22,991 nt of DNA from a virus, in IMG/VR virus record IMGVR_UViG_3300027704_000171, positions 1-22,991 of that record. The stretch is one strand, 5' to 3'. Below the pieces are notes generated by a model. That model made no database searches. It worked only from the letters and a program-made list of their open reading frames with translations, and had not been told where the DNA came from. Position numbers and translations under genes: made by a program. Numbering within the stretch: position 1 is the stretch's first letter; every line of letters starts with the position of its first letter. This document shows, one piece after another, positions 6,506 to 14,100 of the stretch.

Positions 6506-6513
6506 TATAAATA
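6506..6513 (+). promoter_or_regulatory. T4-type late promoter of the curli-like operon
   Basis: TATAAATA lies 25 bases before the first gene of the plus-strand block (start 6539). No other promoter-like element was found upstream of that block, and the following genes are closely packed or overlapping, so this element probably controls the whole run to 14064. Confidence 0.8.
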
Positions 6514-6538
6514 GTCCTATAATACCAAGGAGTAGGCC

Positions 6539-6817
6539 ATGGAGTTTGTACAACTGGTTGCTGATGTTGGCTTCCCGATAGCATCCGCTTTAGCCGGCGG
6601 ATTTTTCGTGTTCCTGACTCTTCGGTTTATTTTAGCTGGGGTGCTTGATTCTATAAAGGTTCAGCGCTCCTTCGCGATTGCTTTAGACAACCGCGTTAAG
6701 ACTATGAACAATGAATTGATTAGGATTGATGTGATGATGTCTGTTGCTTTAGGATTGAAACCTGACTTGGATAGAGTGGCGAGAGCCGATGGTCAAAAGG
6801 ATGCAAGGAAAGATTAG
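6539..6817 (+). CDS. Small single-span membrane protein, holin-like topology
   Basis: A 92-residue protein. An N-terminal membrane span (about residues 10-35, FPIASALAGGFFVFLTLRFI) is followed by a helix of coiled-coil character (ALDNRVKTMNNELIRIDVMM) and a charged tail. The shape resembles small holin-like proteins of the BhlA/UviB type, but these are weak sequence families. A clear partial copy lies at 7047-7340 (same GFPI span, same D-R-xM-N-LIR motif). The start has AAGGAG 7 bases upstream and a late promoter. A role in membrane permeabilisation or in assembling the export system is inference. Confidence 0.8.
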   Translation: MEFVQLVADVGFPIASALAGGFFVFLTLRFILAGVLDSIKVQRSFAIALDNRVKTMNNELIRIDVMMSVALGLKPDLDRVARADGQKDARKD

Positions 6818-6819
6818 TA

Positions 6820-7047
6820 ATGCTTTGGAAGAATATCATGATGCTTACGTTTAAAGGTAAAGAATTAGATGGCGCGACAGTAGATGAAAATGATCATCGA
6901 AATGTCGGCGGTTTTAGAATTGTAACTGAAGAAACACCGGACAATAAGTTCTTTGTCATTGACGATGTAGATTTAAACATTGGTGACATATACAGAATAA
7001 GTCCTACAGGTTTCTTTGAACTAATAGAAAAAGGACCAGCGCTTTAA
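6820..7047 (+). CDS. Small phage protein of unknown function
   Basis: A 75-residue soluble protein, mainly beta in character (MLTFKGKELDGATVDENDHR, then GGFRIVTEE and FFVIDDVDLNIGDIYRI). Starts at 6820 and at the tandem ATGs from 6838 are possible; GGAAG lies 6 bases before 6838. Its stop overlaps the next start as TAATG. It sits between two related membrane proteins. No domain recognised. Confidence 0.65.
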   Translation: MLWKNIMMLTFKGKELDGATVDENDHRNVGGFRIVTEETPDNKFFVIDDVDLNIGDIYRISPTGFFELIEKGPAL

Positions 7048-7340
7048 TGGATATAGCAGAGGCCATCGGCCAATATGGGTTTCCTATAATAGCGGCGCTT
7101 GGCCTCGGCTACTTTATATACTACATTTGGCAATGGGTGACTGAAGAAGTCGATCCTGTTGTTAATGAATCTCATACGACTTTAATAGGTCTTATTGACA
7201 GGGTACGTATGCTAGACAATGATCTCATACGACTTAAGACGAAACTAGATATGGTAATTTCAACAGGATCGGAGAAAAATGACAATGAAGACAAAGATAG
7301 CAGTATTGATGATCCTTCTGATAGTTCCGACTATAAGTAA
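7047..7340 (+). CDS. Small single-span membrane protein, relative of the 6539 product
   Basis: A 97-residue protein: N-terminal span (GFPIIAALGLGYFIYYIWQW, about 11-30), then a helical stretch with LIDRVRMLDNDLIRLKTKLD and a very acidic, disordered tail. The layout and the motifs GFPI and D-R-V-R-M-x-NDLIRL match the gene at 6539, so the two are probably duplicates. I recall similar proteins in marine phages, without known function. The tail-coding region overlaps the start of the CsgF-like gene by 62 bases, which includes that gene's signal peptide. Holin-like or export-accessory roles are both possible. Confidence 0.8.
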   Translation: MDIAEAIGQYGFPIIAALGLGYFIYYIWQWVTEEVDPVVNESHTTLIGLIDRVRMLDNDLIRLKTKLDMVISTGSEKNDNEDKDSSIDDPSDSSDYK

Positions 7341-7743
7341 TGCAGATTTAGGATGGGGATTTAAGAGTCCGGCGTTTAATGGCAATGGATACAGTACTCA
7401 CGTATTGACCACTGAGCAACTGCAACATAATCGTAAAGAAGATCAAAAGGATGCAGCTGATGCAGAAGCTAGGCGTATCGCAAGAGAATTAGAAAATACC
7501 ACACTCAATAAGTTTGTCAAAAACCTTGAGTCTAGAATTTATGCCACATTAAGTAAGCAAATGGTTGACAACATGTTCGCCGCTTGTGGTGATAGCTGCG
7601 CAAGTAGTGGTACCACTGAAATAGAAGGCAGCACGATATACTGGTCGAAAGATGCAACCACGGGTGAGATAACTTTAACTATAACTAACGACGATGGTAC
7701 AACTACTATTACGATACCTGGAGCCGGAGACTTTACATTCTAA
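7279..7743 (+). CDS. csgF: CsgF-like curli assembly factor
   Basis: A 154-residue secreted protein. The signal peptide is residues 1 to about 22 (hydrophobic AVLMILLIVPTI, SNA before the cut). The mature start DLGWGFKSPAFNGNG corresponds to the CsgF head FxxPxFxGN, which in E. coli plugs into the CsgG channel. Then come a helix (LNKFVKNLESRIYATL, 76-91) and a C-terminal beta region (GEITLTITNDDGTTTITIPG), the same order as E. coli CsgF (about 138 residues). An insertion with two cysteines (C103, C107) precedes the beta part. CsgF couples the CsgG pore to fibre nucleation at the cell surface. The next gene is CsgG, coupled as TAATG, which strongly supports the call. Confidence 0.85.
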   Translation: MTMKTKIAVLMILLIVPTISNADLGWGFKSPAFNGNGYSTHVLTTEQLQHNRKEDQKDAADAEARRIARELENTTLNKFVKNLESRIYATLSKQMVDNMFAACGDSCASSGTTEIEGSTIYWSKDATTGEITLTITNDDGTTTITIPGAGDFTF

Positions 7744-8546
7744 TGAAACTAATTGCAGCAACATTATGTGTAGCCCTTGCTGGTTGCGCTCAAATGGGTA
7801 ACGAGATATATCCCACCGAAGAACCTAAAGTTCAGATATCACCTTTAGGTAATGGATTAAAACAATTTCATGAACTAGATGGCAAAATAATGACTATTGC
7901 CGTCTATAGTTTTACAGATAAGACAGGACAACGTAAACCTAGTGATGCTGCTTCTAGTTTAAGTAGTGCAGTTACACAAGGTGGAGAAGTTTGGGTTATT
8001 AAAGCATTGCAAGATGTTGGTAACTCTACATGGTTTGAAGTAGTGGAAAGAGTTGGCCTTGACAATTTGGTTAAGGAACGTCAGCTTGTTCGTAATACAA
8101 GGGAAGTATACGAGAAATCATTAAAGAATGGCCCAACACCTCTAAAGCCTATGGTATTTGCCGGCTTGATTTTAGAAGGAGGAATTGTTGGTTATGATTC
8201 TAATGTTGCCATGGGTGGAACAGGTGCAAGATATTTAGGCATTGGTTTAACGACGGAATACAGAACGGATACAGTGACAATAGTTATGCGATTAGTAAGT
8301 GTCTCCACGGGTAAAGTATTACTTAGTGTGGCTACGGAAAAAAGTATAGCCAGTCACCGCAGCGGCGCGGACGTATTTAGGTTCTTCGATATGGGCACAA
8401 AGTTAGTTGAAGCCGAAACTGGTTATAGTGTGAATGAACCAGTAAATTATGCAGTAAGAGCAGCAGTGGAAGCTGGCGTAATTGAGTTGATCAATGAAGG
8501 AGAAAGAAAGAAATTCTGGAAGTTTATTAAACCTTCCGGAGGTTAA
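7743..8546 (+). CDS. csgG: CsgG-like outer-membrane curli export pore (lipoprotein)
   Basis: A 267-residue protein close to the E. coli CsgG length (277). Lipobox LAGC puts the lipidated cysteine at residue 15; the next residues are Ala-Gln, not Asp, fitting the outer membrane. Family blocks are complete: SFTDKTGQRKPSD (56-68), SSAVTQGGEVWVIKALQD, WFEVVERVGLDNLVKERQ (97-114), ILEGGIVGYDSN (143-154), GGTGARYLGIG (158-168), VFRFFDMG (211-218), NEPVNYAVRAA. In E. coli, nine CsgG subunits form an ungated channel for unfolded curlin. By alignment, constriction residues N55 and F56 of E. coli correspond to Ser72 and Leu73 here. Followed by curlin-like genes, the natural cargo. Confidence 0.95.
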   Translation: MKLIAATLCVALAGCAQMGNEIYPTEEPKVQISPLGNGLKQFHELDGKIMTIAVYSFTDKTGQRKPSDAASSLSSAVTQGGEVWVIKALQDVGNSTWFEVVERVGLDNLVKERQLVRNTREVYEKSLKNGPTPLKPMVFAGLILEGGIVGYDSNVAMGGTGARYLGIGLTTEYRTDTVTIVMRLVSVSTGKVLLSVATEKSIASHRSGADVFRFFDMGTKLVEAETGYSVNEPVNYAVRAAVEAGVIELINEGERKKFWKFIKPSGG

Positions 8547-8560
8547 TAGGAACTAATTAA

Positions 8561-9262
8561 ATGAAAATATTTAAAAGACTGATACCCTTAGCTTGCGTGG
8601 GTTTAGTCGCTGCATCTATTGCAGCTGCTAATGATATTTACATTACTCAAGTCGGTGATACATTAGACTTGGACATTGTCCAAAATGGACAAAACAACGT
8701 GATCGGTACAACCGGACAAGCTGTTGTACTAAATGGTGATGCAATGACCTTTAGCATAACTCAAACAGGTGGCTCAAACTCAATTGCGGCAAATATAAAA
8801 GGCGTAAGTTACACGGGCACGTGGGTATTTACAGGTAGTAATAACTCGGTAGCCTTATTGTGTAGTAGCGCATCAGCTGCAAACTGCGATACAGTAGTAC
8901 TCAACATTACTGCAGTAGGCGATGACCAAGCATACGATATTAAAATCGGTGAAAGCGCTAGCGCAGATCAAGCAACAATTAACTTTACTGTAACAGATGA
9001 CAATAACATTATTACTACTGATGTTGATGGTACTAGTGCAGTGATCAACGTTACTATTAATAAAAACTCAAGTACAGCAGGTAATAGTACACTAGACATT
9101 GATTTAGCTGGCAACGGAGATATCAACGGACACACTATAACCTTTAACGCTCTTGGTCGTGGCCACGCTGTTGTACTTAACCAAAGTGGGATATATGATA
9201 ATGTTATCAACTTGTCGACTAATGGCGATAACCACGCTATTAATATTAATCAGTCAGACTAG
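8561..9262 (+). CDS. Curlin-repeat (CsgA/CsgB-like) secreted protein, smaller form
   Basis: A 233-residue protein with a signal peptide (MKIFKRLIPLACVGLVAASI, cut after AAA at about 23). The mature head is NDIYITQVGDTLDLDIVQNG, almost the same pattern as the second curlin-like protein at 10285. It carries degenerate curlin repeats rich in Asn, Gly, Thr, Ile and Val: VQNGQNNVIG, FSITQTGGSNSI, AVVLNQSG, NGDNHAININQSD. Such strand-turn-strand repeats form the amyloid core of CsgA and CsgB. The repeats are less regular than E. coli CsgA, so it may be a nucleator or minor subunit. AGGA lies 9 bases before the start, and the gene follows csgG. Confidence 0.85.
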   Translation: MKIFKRLIPLACVGLVAASIAAANDIYITQVGDTLDLDIVQNGQNNVIGTTGQAVVLNGDAMTFSITQTGGSNSIAANIKGVSYTGTWVFTGSNNSVALLCSSASAANCDTVVLNITAVGDDQAYDIKIGESASADQATINFTVTDDNNIITTDVDGTSAVINVTINKNSSTAGNSTLDIDLAGNGDINGHTITFNALGRGHAVVLNQSGIYDNVINLSTNGDNHAININQSD

Positions 9263-10343
9263 TCTTGCTAACATAGGTCGCATCGCCGCCGTAGATGGTA
9301 GTGGAGCGATTGAACGTGGTGTAGATGCTATTGACGCAGTAAAAGGTACGGGCATTGATTTGCTCGATACCGCTGTGACCGCAAATGCAACTATGCGCAT
9401 TGACTTCGTTGATGATACGCGAGTAGATATAACTGAACACTCACGATTAATAATCGATGATTTTGTATACGATCCTGCAACAGGAACTGGCTCATTAGGG
9501 CTCAAAGCAAGCCTGGGAACAATACGATATGCATCAGGCCAGATCGCTAAGAATAGCAGACAGAATGTAAAGATTAGAACTCCGTCAGCAACGATCGGTG
9601 TACGTGGAACTGATTTTATCATGGTAGTAAACGAAGCCGGTGGTTCTATGATTACACTGCTTCCTAGCTGCAATACTGATGGAATGTGTTATGTTGGTGA
9701 GATAACCGTCGAGACAGATGCTGGCTTTGTTATCATGAATCAAGCATTTCAAGCGACTATGGTTTCTCATAGTATGAACAAACCTTCAAACCCACTTGTA
9801 TTAGATCTCAGTGAAGATATGATTAACAGCCTTTTGATTCTTCGCAAGACTAGTCCATATGAGGAAGTAGAGAAACTCGAATTAATTAAACGACAAAAGG
9901 GTGCAGACTTTTTAGGCTTAGACTTTTTACAGTATGACGGATTAGATTATGAGATGCTCGTAGATTCTATTGAAAGTATATGGGTAACTGCTCTTGATGA
10001 GACTGATTATATGCTTCAAGATATGTTGTATGATATGCTAGACCAATTAAACCAACAACTGATGAAGCTATTTGCTGATGAACTTGCATTACAGAATGCA
10101 TTCCTATTAAGACAAGAAGGAAAGATCTACGGATTCGATCCTGACAGTGGTATTACGTTAAAGGATTCAAACGGATCCTGGACATTTATCAGAAGAGATT
10201 ATGATGAAGGCGGTTACGTTGAATTAATATTAAACAATGCCTATGGTTATTCCATAGACTTACAACAGGGAGGCTGGGAATTATATGACTATAGATTGGG
10301 CGATACTATCGTTAATAATATTAGGATTATTCAGTCCCAGTAA
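9201..10343 (+). CDS. Secreted FecR-domain protein
   Basis: A 380-residue protein if started at ATG 9201. This start gives a normal signal peptide with an Arg before the hydrophobic core (LMAITTLLILISQTSLA); an ATG at 9222 gives a shorter one. The mature N-terminal half (about 24-180) has the FecR-domain pattern: start VDGSGAIERG, strand MRIDFVDDTRVDITEHSRL, LGTIRYASGQ, and the hallmark TPSATIGVRGTDF. The C-terminal half is acidic and helical, ending in a beta-rich GYVELILNNAYGYSIDLQQG. FecR domains in other bacteria are often encoded beside CHASE2 cyclases, as here, but this protein has no membrane anchor of its own and no sigma factor neighbour. The gene overlaps both flanking genes by about 60 bases. 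Confidence 0.85.
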   Translation: MLSTCRLMAITTLLILISQTSLANIGRIAAVDGSGAIERGVDAIDAVKGTGIDLLDTAVTANATMRIDFVDDTRVDITEHSRLIIDDFVYDPATGTGSLGLKASLGTIRYASGQIAKNSRQNVKIRTPSATIGVRGTDFIMVVNEAGGSMITLLPSCNTDGMCYVGEITVETDAGFVIMNQAFQATMVSHSMNKPSNPLVLDLSEDMINSLLILRKTSPYEEVEKLELIKRQKGADFLGLDFLQYDGLDYEMLVDSIESIWVTALDETDYMLQDMLYDMLDQLNQQLMKLFADELALQNAFLLRQEGKIYGFDPDSGITLKDSNGSWTFIRRDYDEGGYVELILNNAYGYSIDLQQGGWELYDYRLGDTIVNNIRIIQSQ

Positions 10344-11460
10344 GACTGAGGCCAATGATATTCGGGTTGCGCAGATTGGAGACAACATTATATTAAACGT
10401 TACACAGGATGGTAAGGATAATAAAATAACCGGTAAAAATTGGGGTAACTCTAATGCCTACATGAATGGTAGCAACTCAGTTGTGAACTACAGCCAAACC
10501 GGTGATAATAACAGACTAGGTATATACACATATGGCAATAATACAGTTATGAGCCTGACACAAACTGGCAATAACAACACCTCGAGTATGGATGGCCATG
10601 GCTCAAACCTTATAATGTCTGTCACGCAGAACGGCAATAACAACACTTCATATTCCGAGATGGGTAATGGTGGAGATGATAATAACTCTATGACGGTTAC
10701 ACAAGATGGTAATAACAACTACACTAATCCGAATATAAACGGTGACAATAATCTTATTGTTATAGATCAGGATGGTAATAACCATTATGCAACTAGAGTT
10801 GGCACATGGTCTGGTGATAATAACTCAATAGCTATTACTCAGAATGGATCACAACATGAGAATGCTCAGCTTGGTATGAATGGAAATAGTAATACGGTGG
10901 ATATATCGCAGGGCTTTAGTGGCGAGAGTAACCTTACTAGATCAATTATAGTAGGCGATAGTAACGCATTAACAGTATGGCAAGGTAAGCGATTTAGCGG
11001 ATACACTGATACGACTGAAGGTGGTGACCACGAAGCGAATTGGACAATAACTGGCAATAATAATTTGGCACGTAGCTATCAAACAGATGATGCAACTAAC
11101 TGTTGTGCATCGGCTCATCTCACTACAAACACTATAGAGGGTGATGGCAATAGTGTTACGGTAAGACAACGTGTTAGTGAAAATGAAGGTTTTGTGCAGG
11201 TTGTTGGAGATAGTAACTTTGTTGACTTATATCAAAGTGGCGGCGGTAATGCATATGGAAATATCACGGCCACCGGCAATAACCATTCTACGACGAATAT
11301 ACAAAAGGGCGGAGGAGTTCATAGCATAACACTAAATATGACTAATGGAGGCGGAGCTTATAATATCAACACTCTTCAGGACAGTACTAGCAATCAAAGC
11401 TATACATTGGAAGGTACGTGTTTTACAGGAACCTGTGGAATATCGGTAGTCCAGAATTAA
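10285..11460 (+). CDS. Large curlin-repeat (CsgA-like) secreted protein, likely main amyloid subunit
   Basis: A 391-residue protein with a signal peptide (MTIDWAILSLIILGLFSPSK, cut after TEA, about 23). The mature head NDIRVAQIGDNIILNVTQDG matches that of the 8561 product. At least ten repeats of about 20-25 residues follow, with the core S/T-x-x-QxGxxN: NYSQTGDNN, SLTQTGNNN, SVTQNGNNN, TVTQDGNNN, VIDQDGNN, AITQNGS, then more degenerate ones. Q and N ladders of this kind are the amyloid-forming unit of curlins. E. coli CsgA has 5 repeats in about 151 residues, so this is much longer. Four cysteines near the repeats' end (two as CC) are unusual for curlin. It would be exported through the CsgG-like pore. 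Confidence 0.9.
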   Translation: MTIDWAILSLIILGLFSPSKTEANDIRVAQIGDNIILNVTQDGKDNKITGKNWGNSNAYMNGSNSVVNYSQTGDNNRLGIYTYGNNTVMSLTQTGNNNTSSMDGHGSNLIMSVTQNGNNNTSYSEMGNGGDDNNSMTVTQDGNNNYTNPNINGDNNLIVIDQDGNNHYATRVGTWSGDNNSIAITQNGSQHENAQLGMNGNSNTVDISQGFSGESNLTRSIIVGDSNALTVWQGKRFSGYTDTTEGGDHEANWTITGNNNLARSYQTDDATNCCASAHLTTNTIEGDGNSVTVRQRVSENEGFVQVVGDSNFVDLYQSGGGNAYGNITATGNNHSTTNIQKGGGVHSITLNMTNGGGAYNINTLQDSTSNQSYTLEGTCFTGTCGISVVQN

Positions 11461-11469
11461 GGAAATGAA

Positions 11470-13521
11470 ATGAAATACTTGACACATTGGGCATTAGCCT
11501 TTGTTACTGCTGCAGCAGTATTACTATTCCACTATAACGACGGAACTGTTGTACAAACTTTACGGCTTAAACAATTCGACTTATTGCAAGAGTATGATAC
11601 ACCAGTAGTAAGCGAAGATATTGCTATTCTTACTATTGATGAGAAAGCAATAGAGAAGCATGGGCAATGGCCTTGGAAGCGTGATGTGCTTGCTAACGTC
11701 ATATGGCAACTGAGAGAGGCTGGTGCCGGAGTTATAGTACTACCAATTTTATTCAGTGAGTATGATCGACTTAACGGTGACCAAGAATTATTAGATGCCA
11801 TGATAGACAATTCAGTTGTTATAGCGCAAGTCGGTTCTTTCGATGCAGATAAGAATGGAGTCCCACGTGGAGTAGCAAAGATCGGGGATCCACTGCCGTT
11901 CTTATTCGAATGGGATGGAATGCTCGGGCCAATCAGTGAGTTCGGTGATAATGCCGGTGGTGTTGGAGTGCTCAATGTCGTACCTGAGATTGATGGAGTA
12001 GTTAGGCGTATACCCTTGCTCATGCGCGTAGGGGCCGATATCTATCCAGCGCTTACAATTGAAGTTATTCGTGTAGCCGTAGGTGATCCATCATATCAAG
12101 TAAAAAGTAGTGCTGGTGGCATCGATAAGATGAGAGTGCCTGGTTATCCTACAATACAAACCGACTTTAATGGTAGGATATGGCTGCGATGGAACAAAGT
12201 TTTTAGTCATACGAGCGTAGCGGATGATCATGCGTTTAGTGAATTATCAGGTAAGATTGTTATAATAGGAACAACGGCTGCTGGTTTAGGTGGAGTTATA
12301 GCATCTCCTAAAGGTGGTCAATATAATTATATGCCTGCTGCCGTATCGTTGCAATCAATTCTAGATGGTGATACGATCTCACGTCCATGGTGGGCTAGTA
12401 TGGTTGAGTTGATTCTCACTGGTATCCTTTGTTTTGGAATGGCATTGTGTACTATATCCTCACGATATTGGATCATCGGATCTAAGATTATAGGCTTTCC
12501 TATTTTATTAGGTGGTATCTCTTGGTACGCATGGTCAGAGTATTTGTATCTAATTGATGTAACTATGCCGATTATTGGTATTGTACTAGTAAGCTTACAT
12601 GGTGTCTTTTCTAGGTTTGTCAGAGAATACACAGAGAAACAAGCAATCAAGAAGCAGTTCGCTGGTTACGCTTCTCCTACGGTTGTACGTATGCTACAAG
12701 AGAATCCTGAACTAATCAAAGAGGGCATGAAGAAAGAAGTATCGATATGCTTCTCAGATTTGCGTGGATTTACTCCACTAGGCGAATCATTTGGTGATGA
12801 TGTGAAGGGTTTAACTAAGGTAATGAATGGTTACATGGATGCGATCACTCAGCCTATATTAGATTCGGATGGAATGGTTATTAAGTATATCGGTGATGCG
12901 TCTATGCATATACACAACGCACCGTTAGATGATCCTGACCATCCTAAAACAGCAGTACGTACTGCATTAAATATGATTAAACAAGTAGAGGTATTCAACA
13001 ATGGAACCACAATGGAGGGTAAACCGCCTATTGGTATGGGGGCTGGCGTTAATACTGGCCTCGGCTATATTGGGGAAATGGGATCATCGGCACGTCATTC
13101 CTACGATATCTTGGGGGACGCTGTATCAACAGCAGCAAGATTAGAATCGGCATGTAAAGGATACGGTGTAGTGTTAATCGTAGGACCTTCAACATACGAA
13201 GTTACAAAAGATGATTTCTTTTACTTAAAGCTGGATAACCTTGCCGTAAAAGGAAAGACGGTTGGTTTAGAAATCTATACGGCTATAGATACACCACACC
13301 CACCGGTGTTTAAAAGTAGCAAAAGATTACACGATGAGATGCATAGGCATTATAGTAACCAAGACTTTAAAGAAGCAATTAGACATTGCAATCTTTTAAA
13401 GGTTAGTTTCTATGGTCAGATGCTTGGTTATTATGAAATGTGGATTGAGAGATGTGAATACATGATGACTCAAGATCTGCCCGCTGATTGGGATGGGATA
13501 TTTAGAGCTACAACTAAATGA
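11470..13521 (+). CDS. CHASE2-domain class III adenylate/guanylate cyclase
   Basis: A 683-residue membrane protein. The N-terminal span (about 7-20) is followed by a CHASE2 sensor outside the cytoplasm (about 35-300; VSEDIAILTIDEKAI and GKIVIIGTTA are typical). Three spans (about 312-330, 338-356, 361-380) follow, then a class III cyclase domain (about 420-605) and a C-terminal helical tail ending in DWDGIF. In the catalytic domain both metal-binding Asp are present (D430 in FSDLRGF, D476 in KYIGD), with K472 and D546 at purine-recognition positions, favouring ATP. Arg557 (AARLE) is kept, but the usual transition-state Asn is Ser553 (GDAVSTAARLE). The neighbouring FecR protein is the likely periplasmic partner. 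AAGGA lies 6 bases before the start. Confidence 0.92.
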   Translation: MKYLTHWALAFVTAAAVLLFHYNDGTVVQTLRLKQFDLLQEYDTPVVSEDIAILTIDEKAIEKHGQWPWKRDVLANVIWQLREAGAGVIVLPILFSEYDRLNGDQELLDAMIDNSVVIAQVGSFDADKNGVPRGVAKIGDPLPFLFEWDGMLGPISEFGDNAGGVGVLNVVPEIDGVVRRIPLLMRVGADIYPALTIEVIRVAVGDPSYQVKSSAGGIDKMRVPGYPTIQTDFNGRIWLRWNKVFSHTSVADDHAFSELSGKIVIIGTTAAGLGGVIASPKGGQYNYMPAAVSLQSILDGDTISRPWWASMVELILTGILCFGMALCTISSRYWIIGSKIIGFPILLGGISWYAWSEYLYLIDVTMPIIGIVLVSLHGVFSRFVREYTEKQAIKKQFAGYASPTVVRMLQENPELIKEGMKKEVSICFSDLRGFTPLGESFGDDVKGLTKVMNGYMDAITQPILDSDGMVIKYIGDASMHIHNAPLDDPDHPKTAVRTALNMIKQVEVFNNGTTMEGKPPIGMGAGVNTGLGYIGEMGSSARHSYDILGDAVSTAARLESACKGYGVVLIVGPSTYEVTKDDFFYLKLDNLAVKGKTVGLEIYTAIDTPHPPVFKSSKRLHDEMHRHYSNQDFKEAIRHCNLLKVSFYGQMLGYYEMWIERCEYMMTQDLPADWDGIFRATTK

Positions 13522-13670
13522 TAATTATTCTTCACAAAGGGTTTACTTTAAAACCCATAGTGAAGAAGACTCCTGTCAGACTAATCGGAGGTCAACCTAA
13601 TCCCGAATGGGAACCTAGGATATCACCGAAACCCTATGTAAAGGAAAGTAATAATGGCAAAAGTAACTGA
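13518..13670 (+). CDS. Small proline-rich protein of unknown function
   Basis: A 50-residue reading frame starting on the ATGA that ends the cyclase gene and running 17 bases into the next gene. It is basic and proline rich (GQPNPEWEPRISPKPYVK) with a short hydrophobic start (MIIILHKGFTLKP). No family recognised. The coupled start and tight fit between genes support expression; the composition alone does not. Confidence 0.5.
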   Translation: MIIILHKGFTLKPIVKKTPVRLIGGQPNPEWEPRISPKPYVKESNNGKSN

Positions 13671-14064
13671 AGGAGCTGCCTTAAAAGGACAGCAAAAAAG
13701 GTTATCTAAAAATTCTAGATATGCACATTTAGATATAGATGGCGATGGAATTGTAAGTGATGAGGAAATGATGAGTGAACAAAGAATGCTTGAATTAGAA
13801 GATATGCGCACTGATATGGAGAATGAAGATAAGAAGCAGGACGCTCAGCGTAACATGACGTGGTTTGCACTAGCAGGCTTATTGTTATATCCTGTTATGA
13901 TTATTCTTTGTAACGTTAGTGGCCAATCAGTTGCTGCAGATAATCTAACTACTATTGCGCCTACATATTGTATCGCAGTTGTTGGTATAGTTGCTGCTTT
14001 CTTTGGTGCACAAGCATACAAAGGAAAGGCTGCTGTTAAAGCTAAGAAAAAAGAAGAGTGGTAA
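13654..14064 (+). CDS. EF-hand membrane protein
   Basis: A 136-residue protein with one canonical EF-hand loop at residues 27-38 (DIDGDGIVSDEE; ligands D27, D29, D31, E38). A charged, Met-rich helix comes next, then two membrane spans (about 69-87 and 104-122), and the end is lysine rich (KAAVKAKKKEEW). I recall small EF-hand plus membrane-span proteins in other marine T4-like phages, where the role is unknown. Here it is the last gene of the late operon, and AAAGGA precedes its start. A calcium-dependent role in fibre export, lysis or virion structure is possible but unproven. The strong hairpin at 14075 follows directly. Confidence 0.85.
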   Translation: MAKVTEGAALKGQQKRLSKNSRYAHLDIDGDGIVSDEEMMSEQRMLELEDMRTDMENEDKKQDAQRNMTWFALAGLLLYPVMIILCNVSGQSVAADNLTTIAPTYCIAVVGIVAAFFGAQAYKGKAAVKAKKKEEW

Positions 14065-14074
14065 ATACTAAAAT

Positions 14075-14100
14075 GCCGGGTGTACTTTTGTACACCCGGC
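14075..14100. terminator. Hairpin between convergent operons, probably bidirectional terminator
   Basis: A perfect 11-base stem (GCCGGGTGTAC with GTACACCCGGC) with loop TTTT. It lies 10 bases after the stop of the last late-operon gene and 28 bases before the stop of the converging endolysin gene. Both flanks are T-rich but without a long T run, so it may end transcription from both sides. Confidence 0.75.

Follow-up and report, generated by a model that had tools for sequence, protein, structure and literature searches.

The 22,991-base IMG/VR virus record IMGVR_UViG_3300027704_000171, hereafter the window, carries on its plus strand, at positions 6506 to 14064, an operon for curli-like (type VIII) secretion behind a T4-type late promoter sequence, and comparison with related viral contigs shows that the genes of this system form a discrete and recurrent cassette. 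The operon encodes, in reading order, S1, X, S2, CsgF, CsgG, a first curlin-type protein (A1), a FecR-domain protein (R), a second curlin-type protein (A2), a CHASE2 cyclase (C) and an EF-hand protein (E). CsgF, CsgG, two curlins, the FecR protein, the cyclase and the EF-hand protein had all been proposed in an initial annotation made from the DNA letters, and Pfam searches located each of them at the expected place (A1 through its homologues). The components of type VIII (curli) secretion are present, namely CsgG with a lipoprotein signal, CsgF, and curlin-repeat substrates with a signal peptide. We tentatively read the cassette as a late, sensor-monitored amyloid export system forming surface fibres, an interpretation whose probability we place a little short of even.

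Loci for comparison came from scans of IMG/VR viral contigs for CsgG and for S (the S1/S2 family), and form a sample biased towards relatives of the window. The scans gave at least 600 matched stretches, at least 577 of them encoding CsgG relatives, and at least 171 loci with distinct CsgG proteins among the matches listed. Within these 171 listed loci, CsgG was found in 171, curlins and CsgF in 163 each, R in 154, S in 144 and C in 117. Where loci were fully flanked, S, CsgF, CsgG, curlin and R were each encoded in 43/43, C in 41/43 and two curlins in 37/43, a constancy that marks the cassette as discrete when set against the next commonest neighbour family (32/171 listed loci).

Late control is indicated by the motif TATAAATA, which we take to be the T4-type late promoter. 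Exact matches in the window number 5 against 2.7 expected, such that a single match is weak alone. Across relatives, however, the motif lies within 120 base pairs (bp) upstream of S1 in 50 of 104 distinct loci, versus 2.8 expected by shuffling, and this conservation and the gene content support the earlier proposal that the phage encodes curli-like export genes driven by a late promoter. The S pair is situated upstream of csgF in 106 loci and runs convergently from beyond the cyclase gene in 43; with convergent S, the motif precedes S1 in 9/40 loci (0.7 expected) and csgF in 11/40 (0.8 expected), while among loci with no S seen it precedes csgF in 9/18 (0.5 expected). Upstream of internal genes it was not found (0/163 for CsgG, 0/148 for R). 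A T4-type late promoter ahead of the unit groups the module with virion and lysis genes, and sea-water transcripts of module genes have been reported (PMC9599517).

S1 and S2 are paralogous members of PHROG 18771, beyond which no described family takes them in; in both, a single hydrophobic stretch is accompanied by a conserved polar helix. Conservation is strong: S1 ends in DARKD and S2 carries RIRMLDNDxIRL. Among 50,697 phage records they were confined to strains of HTVC008M and Melnitz (phages of SAR11 and OM43), all of which carry csg genes, and searches with S1 or S2 led to 50 viral contigs, of which 48 encode CsgG; at the other two (loci L148 and L211) the retrieved stretch stops 1-2.5 kilobases (kb) past S2, at the contig end. 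S1 and S2 are an obligatory pair occurring essentially only with the curli module. The initial annotation was right that two such genes are present, but its description of them as holin-like did not hold, as they matched no holin family above threshold. Holins were rejected because no Pfam family scored above threshold, the PHROG holin hit was weak and partial (0.035) and the genes are tied to csg genes. Histidine kinases were rejected as well, the proteins having 92 and 97 amino acids and the 24 members scanned giving no HisKA or ATPase Pfam match. From position, number and short size, we infer that S1 and S2 correspond to the 'HK' genes of PMC9599517.

The export components are of recognisable curli type. 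The lipobox cysteine of CsgG (Cys15) is invariant, and the window protein is about 51% identical to CsgG of HTVC008M. CsgG forms a non-selective diffusion channel; its pore loop in the phages is of a type common to several bacterial CsgG proteins, and a leakier pore was rejected because this loop is not specially opened. In the CsgG tree, 70 of 71 phage tips were separate from all bacterial tips, with weak support (0.57), while a strict N-terminal motif of CsgF, found in 79/163 phage and 3/24 bacterial proteins, was uninformative as a count. A1 itself has no Pfam match, but Curlin_rpt is recognised in 22 of its 36 aligned homologues, and the A1 model is all-beta (predicted local distance difference test, pLDDT, 84; predicted template modelling score, pTM, 0.78); Foldseek found no significant structural neighbour for this model, the best having E 0.11 and the CsgA fibril of E. 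coli (8enq) only E 1.1. A search for CsgC found none, in keeping with the initial annotation, which had also seen no CsgD, a protein that was not searched for with a model of its own.

The AlphaFold model of R (pLDDT 83.6, pTM 0.54) comprises a FecR domain, a helical linker and a C-terminal beta domain. Its FecR fold resembles the PupR anti-sigma regulator (Z 15.6) and the surface-anchoring domain of an antifreeze adhesin (Z 10.5). Of 86 divergent homologues, 83 have a strand pattern resembling that of curlins in their last 20 residues, compared with 16 in shuffles, and the C-terminal profile of R matched the C-terminus of A2 (P 1.5e-4) and, more weakly, the first curlin (P 0.006), with controls at P >=0.03. 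A hidden Markov model of phage curlin repeats did not separate R tails from shuffled sequence, and the case for an arch therefore comes from the strand pattern and profile-profile comparison only. These constitute moderate evidence that phage R ends in a curlin-like arch; sampled bacterial FecR partners were without a curlin-like tail.

The cyclase retains its catalytic core across the phages, the metal-binding Asp pair and the Arg being invariant in 123/123 sequences and the Lys present in 122/123, with the remaining one an unread X. Two catalytic types occur in this single phage family, one with Asp at the base site and a transition-state Ser (59/123), the other with Thr/Ser and Asn (64/123). 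The window cyclase, which is 61% identical to that of Melnitz over its full length, has both metal Asp residues, the substrate Lys/Asp and the transition-state Arg, and belongs to the first type, its base-recognising residue being Asp and its transition-state position holding Ser where Asn is usual. Base-site residues, read with general knowledge of such enzymes, indicate that C is probably an adenylate cyclase.

A pairing of FecR with CHASE2 also exists in bacteria. In a Pfam search of 30 bacterial genomes, FecR and CHASE2 genes were located away from csg, and a FecR gene lay within 4 kb of 9 of 23 bacterial CHASE2 genes, compared with 0.14 expected by chance; in several genomes it was immediately 5' of the CHASE2 gene. 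From this adjacency, the phage cassette looks like such a pair combined with a set of curli export genes. Both arrangements place a secreted FecR-domain protein beside a CHASE2 protein, often a cyclase, but the phages put the second curlin gene between the two and add a putative curlin-like tail to FecR. In one bacterial genome (L343, L342), a FecR-CHASE2 pair lies a few kb past a csg-curlin cluster that comprises five or more curlin-like genes.

The features of the operon are listed in Table 1. Coding ends overlap or almost abut at S2/csgF, csgF/csgG, A1/R and R/A2. The next gene downstream in the window, on the opposite strand, encodes a peptidoglycan-binding endolysin, and the window also codes for T4-type genes (RNase H, PhoH, NrdB and SegE-like), tRNA-Pro and tRNA-Trp.

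Table 1. Features of the curli-like operon and its borders, in window coordinates (TM, transmembrane segment)
Feature	Position	Strand	Support or remark
T4-type late promoter TATAAATA	6506..6513	+	25 bp 5' of first gene; conserved upstream of operon in relatives
S1, 92 amino acids, one TM, conserved tail helix ending DARKD	6539..6817	+	PHROG 18771 3.4e-29
X, small protein of 75 amino acids, found in a minority of loci	6820..7047	+	
S2, 97 amino acids, S1 paralogue	7047..7340	+	PHROG 18771 2.8e-28
CsgF, secreted partner of CsgG pore	7279..7743	+	Pfam CsgF 1.8e-13, model positions 4-132 of 132
CsgG, outer-membrane lipoprotein pore	7743..8546	+	Pfam CsgG 5.7e-51; E. coli CsgG structures by profile 1.3e-65
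A1, first curlin-type substrate, signal peptide	8561..9262	+	homologues match Curlin_rpt; all-beta model
R, secreted FecR-domain protein with helical linker, C-terminal beta domain and putative curlin-like end arch	9195..10343	+	Pfam FecR 5.9e-9; AlphaFold model
A2, second curlin-type substrate	10285..11460	+	Curlin_rpt 2.5e-12, six stretches; match to solved curlin-repeat protein 8c50 1.5e-4
C, CHASE2 sensor and class III cyclase	11470..13521	+	Pfam CHASE2 6.9e-41, Guanylate_cyc 1.1e-16; catalytic residues
E, EF-hand protein with two TM	13654..14064	+	weakly holin-like; occurs in csg-less phages too
Terminator-like hairpin, 11-bp stem	14075..14100	-	scored on minus strand, facing end of plus-strand operon

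E was located inside or next to the module in several loci. It was rejected as a specific curli part because it is present in phages without csg genes, and is probably a membrane protein common to phages in general, carried along in this operon. The csg-less phages that have it include those of Roseobacter and Limnohabitans, and E is possibly a calcium-linked holin.

The module itself is not new, having been described in PMC7029224, PMC9004378 and above all PMC9599517. The first two papers bear out the remark in the initial annotation that some marine phages have csgF/csgG homologues: both genes were reported in pelagimyophages, with 'sibling capture' suggested (PMC7029224, 2020), and in the Methylophilales phage Melnitz, where curlin genes were stated to be absent and a lysis-control pore was proposed (PMC9004378, 2022). 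Wittmers et al. (PMC9599517, 2022) gave the order HK(s)-CsgF-CsgG-CsgA/B-FecR-CsgA/B-AC for pelagiphages of two families, with one or two 'HK' genes. The earlier view, in which a complete module with two substrates plus a signalling pair was poorly understood, is only partly right: it holds for the purpose, but this gene order had already been published. The window shares the family order of the HTVC008M/pelagiphage type VIII secretion system module, from which CsgE, CsgC and CsgD are missing as published, in that CsgF-CsgG-A-R-A-C follows one or two short genes; it differs in that the genes before csgF encode one-TM proteins without a kinase match. Melnitz has the entire cassette in identical order, so that a gene-order check in marine phages, suggested at the outset, recovered the arrangement in both HTVC008M and Melnitz. 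Contrary to PMC9004378, the GenBank record of Melnitz-3 (L003 12845-15639) annotates two curlin-repeat genes and FecR. Bacterial curli operons (E. coli csgBAC/csgDEFG and alphaproteobacterial csgFG-curlin clusters) have CsgF, CsgG and curlin substrates in common with the phage module but, in 39 bacterial csg loci examined with phage-built profiles, none had FecR, the CHASE2 cyclase or S1/S2 nearby. What is new here is the cassette borders, the obligatory S1/S2 pair, the late promoters, the FecR-CHASE2 pairing, the putative arch of R and the invariant metal residues of the cyclase.

The cassette also occurs on contigs of 285, 349 and 357 kb, larger than the genomes of HTVC008M and Melnitz. Those of 235-357 kb that carry it (L133, L178, L215, L165 and L225) are probably jumbo phages, and no paper in the literature collection searched connects jumbo phages to the curli module. 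Four of the five large-contig CsgG proteins fell in one clade of 11 tips (support 0.80), L178 being the one not in the tree. CsgG-like genes of Brevundimonas jumbo phages were distant (27-29% identity), and no neighbour was annotated as a curli component. Some phage-like contigs of the genome collection are labelled Rhodobacteraceae, Flavobacteriaceae or Pelagibacter, probably as a result of binning.

If the cassette is a late, sensor-monitored export system, the phage would turn on a self-contained type VIII secretion set in which CsgG and CsgF form an outer-membrane pore, and the two secreted curlins would pass out through it and assemble into surface amyloid on the dying cell or on its debris. 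R would be periplasmic or associated with the outer membrane, where its putative curlin-like arch may contact curlin subunits or the fibre base, and its partner would be the CHASE2 sensor of the cyclase in the inner membrane; neighbouring FecR and CHASE2 proteins probably cooperate likewise in bacteria. Cyclic AMP could then report curlin export or periplasmic build-up, with S1 and S2 serving as small inner-membrane partners. As a matter of speculation, the likeliest benefit would be 'sibling capture' (PMC7029224), with fibres tying the lysed cell and the phage progeny to hosts nearby. A new sensor-coupled machine, in which a curlin-like tip of R is templated by or caps the amyloid and signals to the cyclase, S1/S2 are a further working part as a phage-specific inner-membrane pair and cyclic AMP reports completion of surface amyloid before lysis, has an appreciable chance of being correct, though on the whole it is unlikely.

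Several observations weigh against late, sensor-monitored export. CsgE, which the initial annotation had not seen either, had no match when the window and seven large related contigs were searched (E. coli serving as positive control), and the pore may therefore be ungated or rely on a host factor; CsgE is the periplasmic cap in E. coli and is missing from many lineages, so that it is not strictly defining. Pfam Curlin_rpt gave no match on the C-terminal arch of R, whole-model structure searches barely probed this region and the profile support for it is moderate. The transition-state Ser of the window cyclase could, to judge from the residues, lower activity, and no clumping was seen in infected OM43 cells (PMC9004378).

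Of the roles offered in the initial annotation, fibres on the infected cell fit best, and these might instead protect the cell from other phages. Such superinfection exclusion (PMC9599517) would suit a pore and curlins that are always together, and curli restricts phage entry in other bacteria (PMC9599517), but late expression falls when exclusion is less useful; timing is not decisive, as late genes can precede lysis well, and we consider this explanation rather unlikely. The suggestion that CsgG, with CsgF, is mainly an outer-membrane pore leaking or timing lysis, in the manner of a pinholin or secretin (PMC9004378), is decidedly unlikely. The late promoter, the endolysin gene next downstream in the window and the weak resemblance of E to holins would all accord with it; however, curlins are constant in the fully flanked loci, mostly as two copies, and an endolysin neighbour is not (a hydrolase-like family occurs in 22/171 listed loci), which weakens this reading and with it the earlier idea of help in lysis. 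In addition, the pore loop is of the bacterial kind, and the proposal held curlins to be absent from Melnitz, whereas the GenBank strain record annotates two.

That the curlins decorate the virion or form adhesive fibres on it appears very unlikely: expression is late, alongside structural genes, and the module adjoins baseplate genes in HTVC008M and Melnitz, but signal peptides and an outer-membrane exporter would remove the curlins from the cytoplasm, where virions assemble, leaving contact only after lysis. The non-selective CsgG channel and the naming of FecR after iron transport might be taken to favour uptake of nutrients or cofactors through the pore, with FecR as an iron-linked regulator. 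This proposal (PMC7029224, PMC9599517) is highly improbable, as it leaves the invariant curlins unexplained and sits poorly with late expression; moreover, iron is not implied by FecR, which pairs with CHASE2 genes in bacteria and whose domain occurs in anti-sigma regulators and an adhesin anchor.

If late, sensor-monitored amyloid export is correct, amyloid-coated dying cells would change the picture of infection, aggregation and particle formation in water. The system is common, and its comparison across loci names two obligatory, unstudied genes and shows late control. For FecR and CHASE2, a pair that is frequent in bacteria too, it provides a testable sensor hypothesis.

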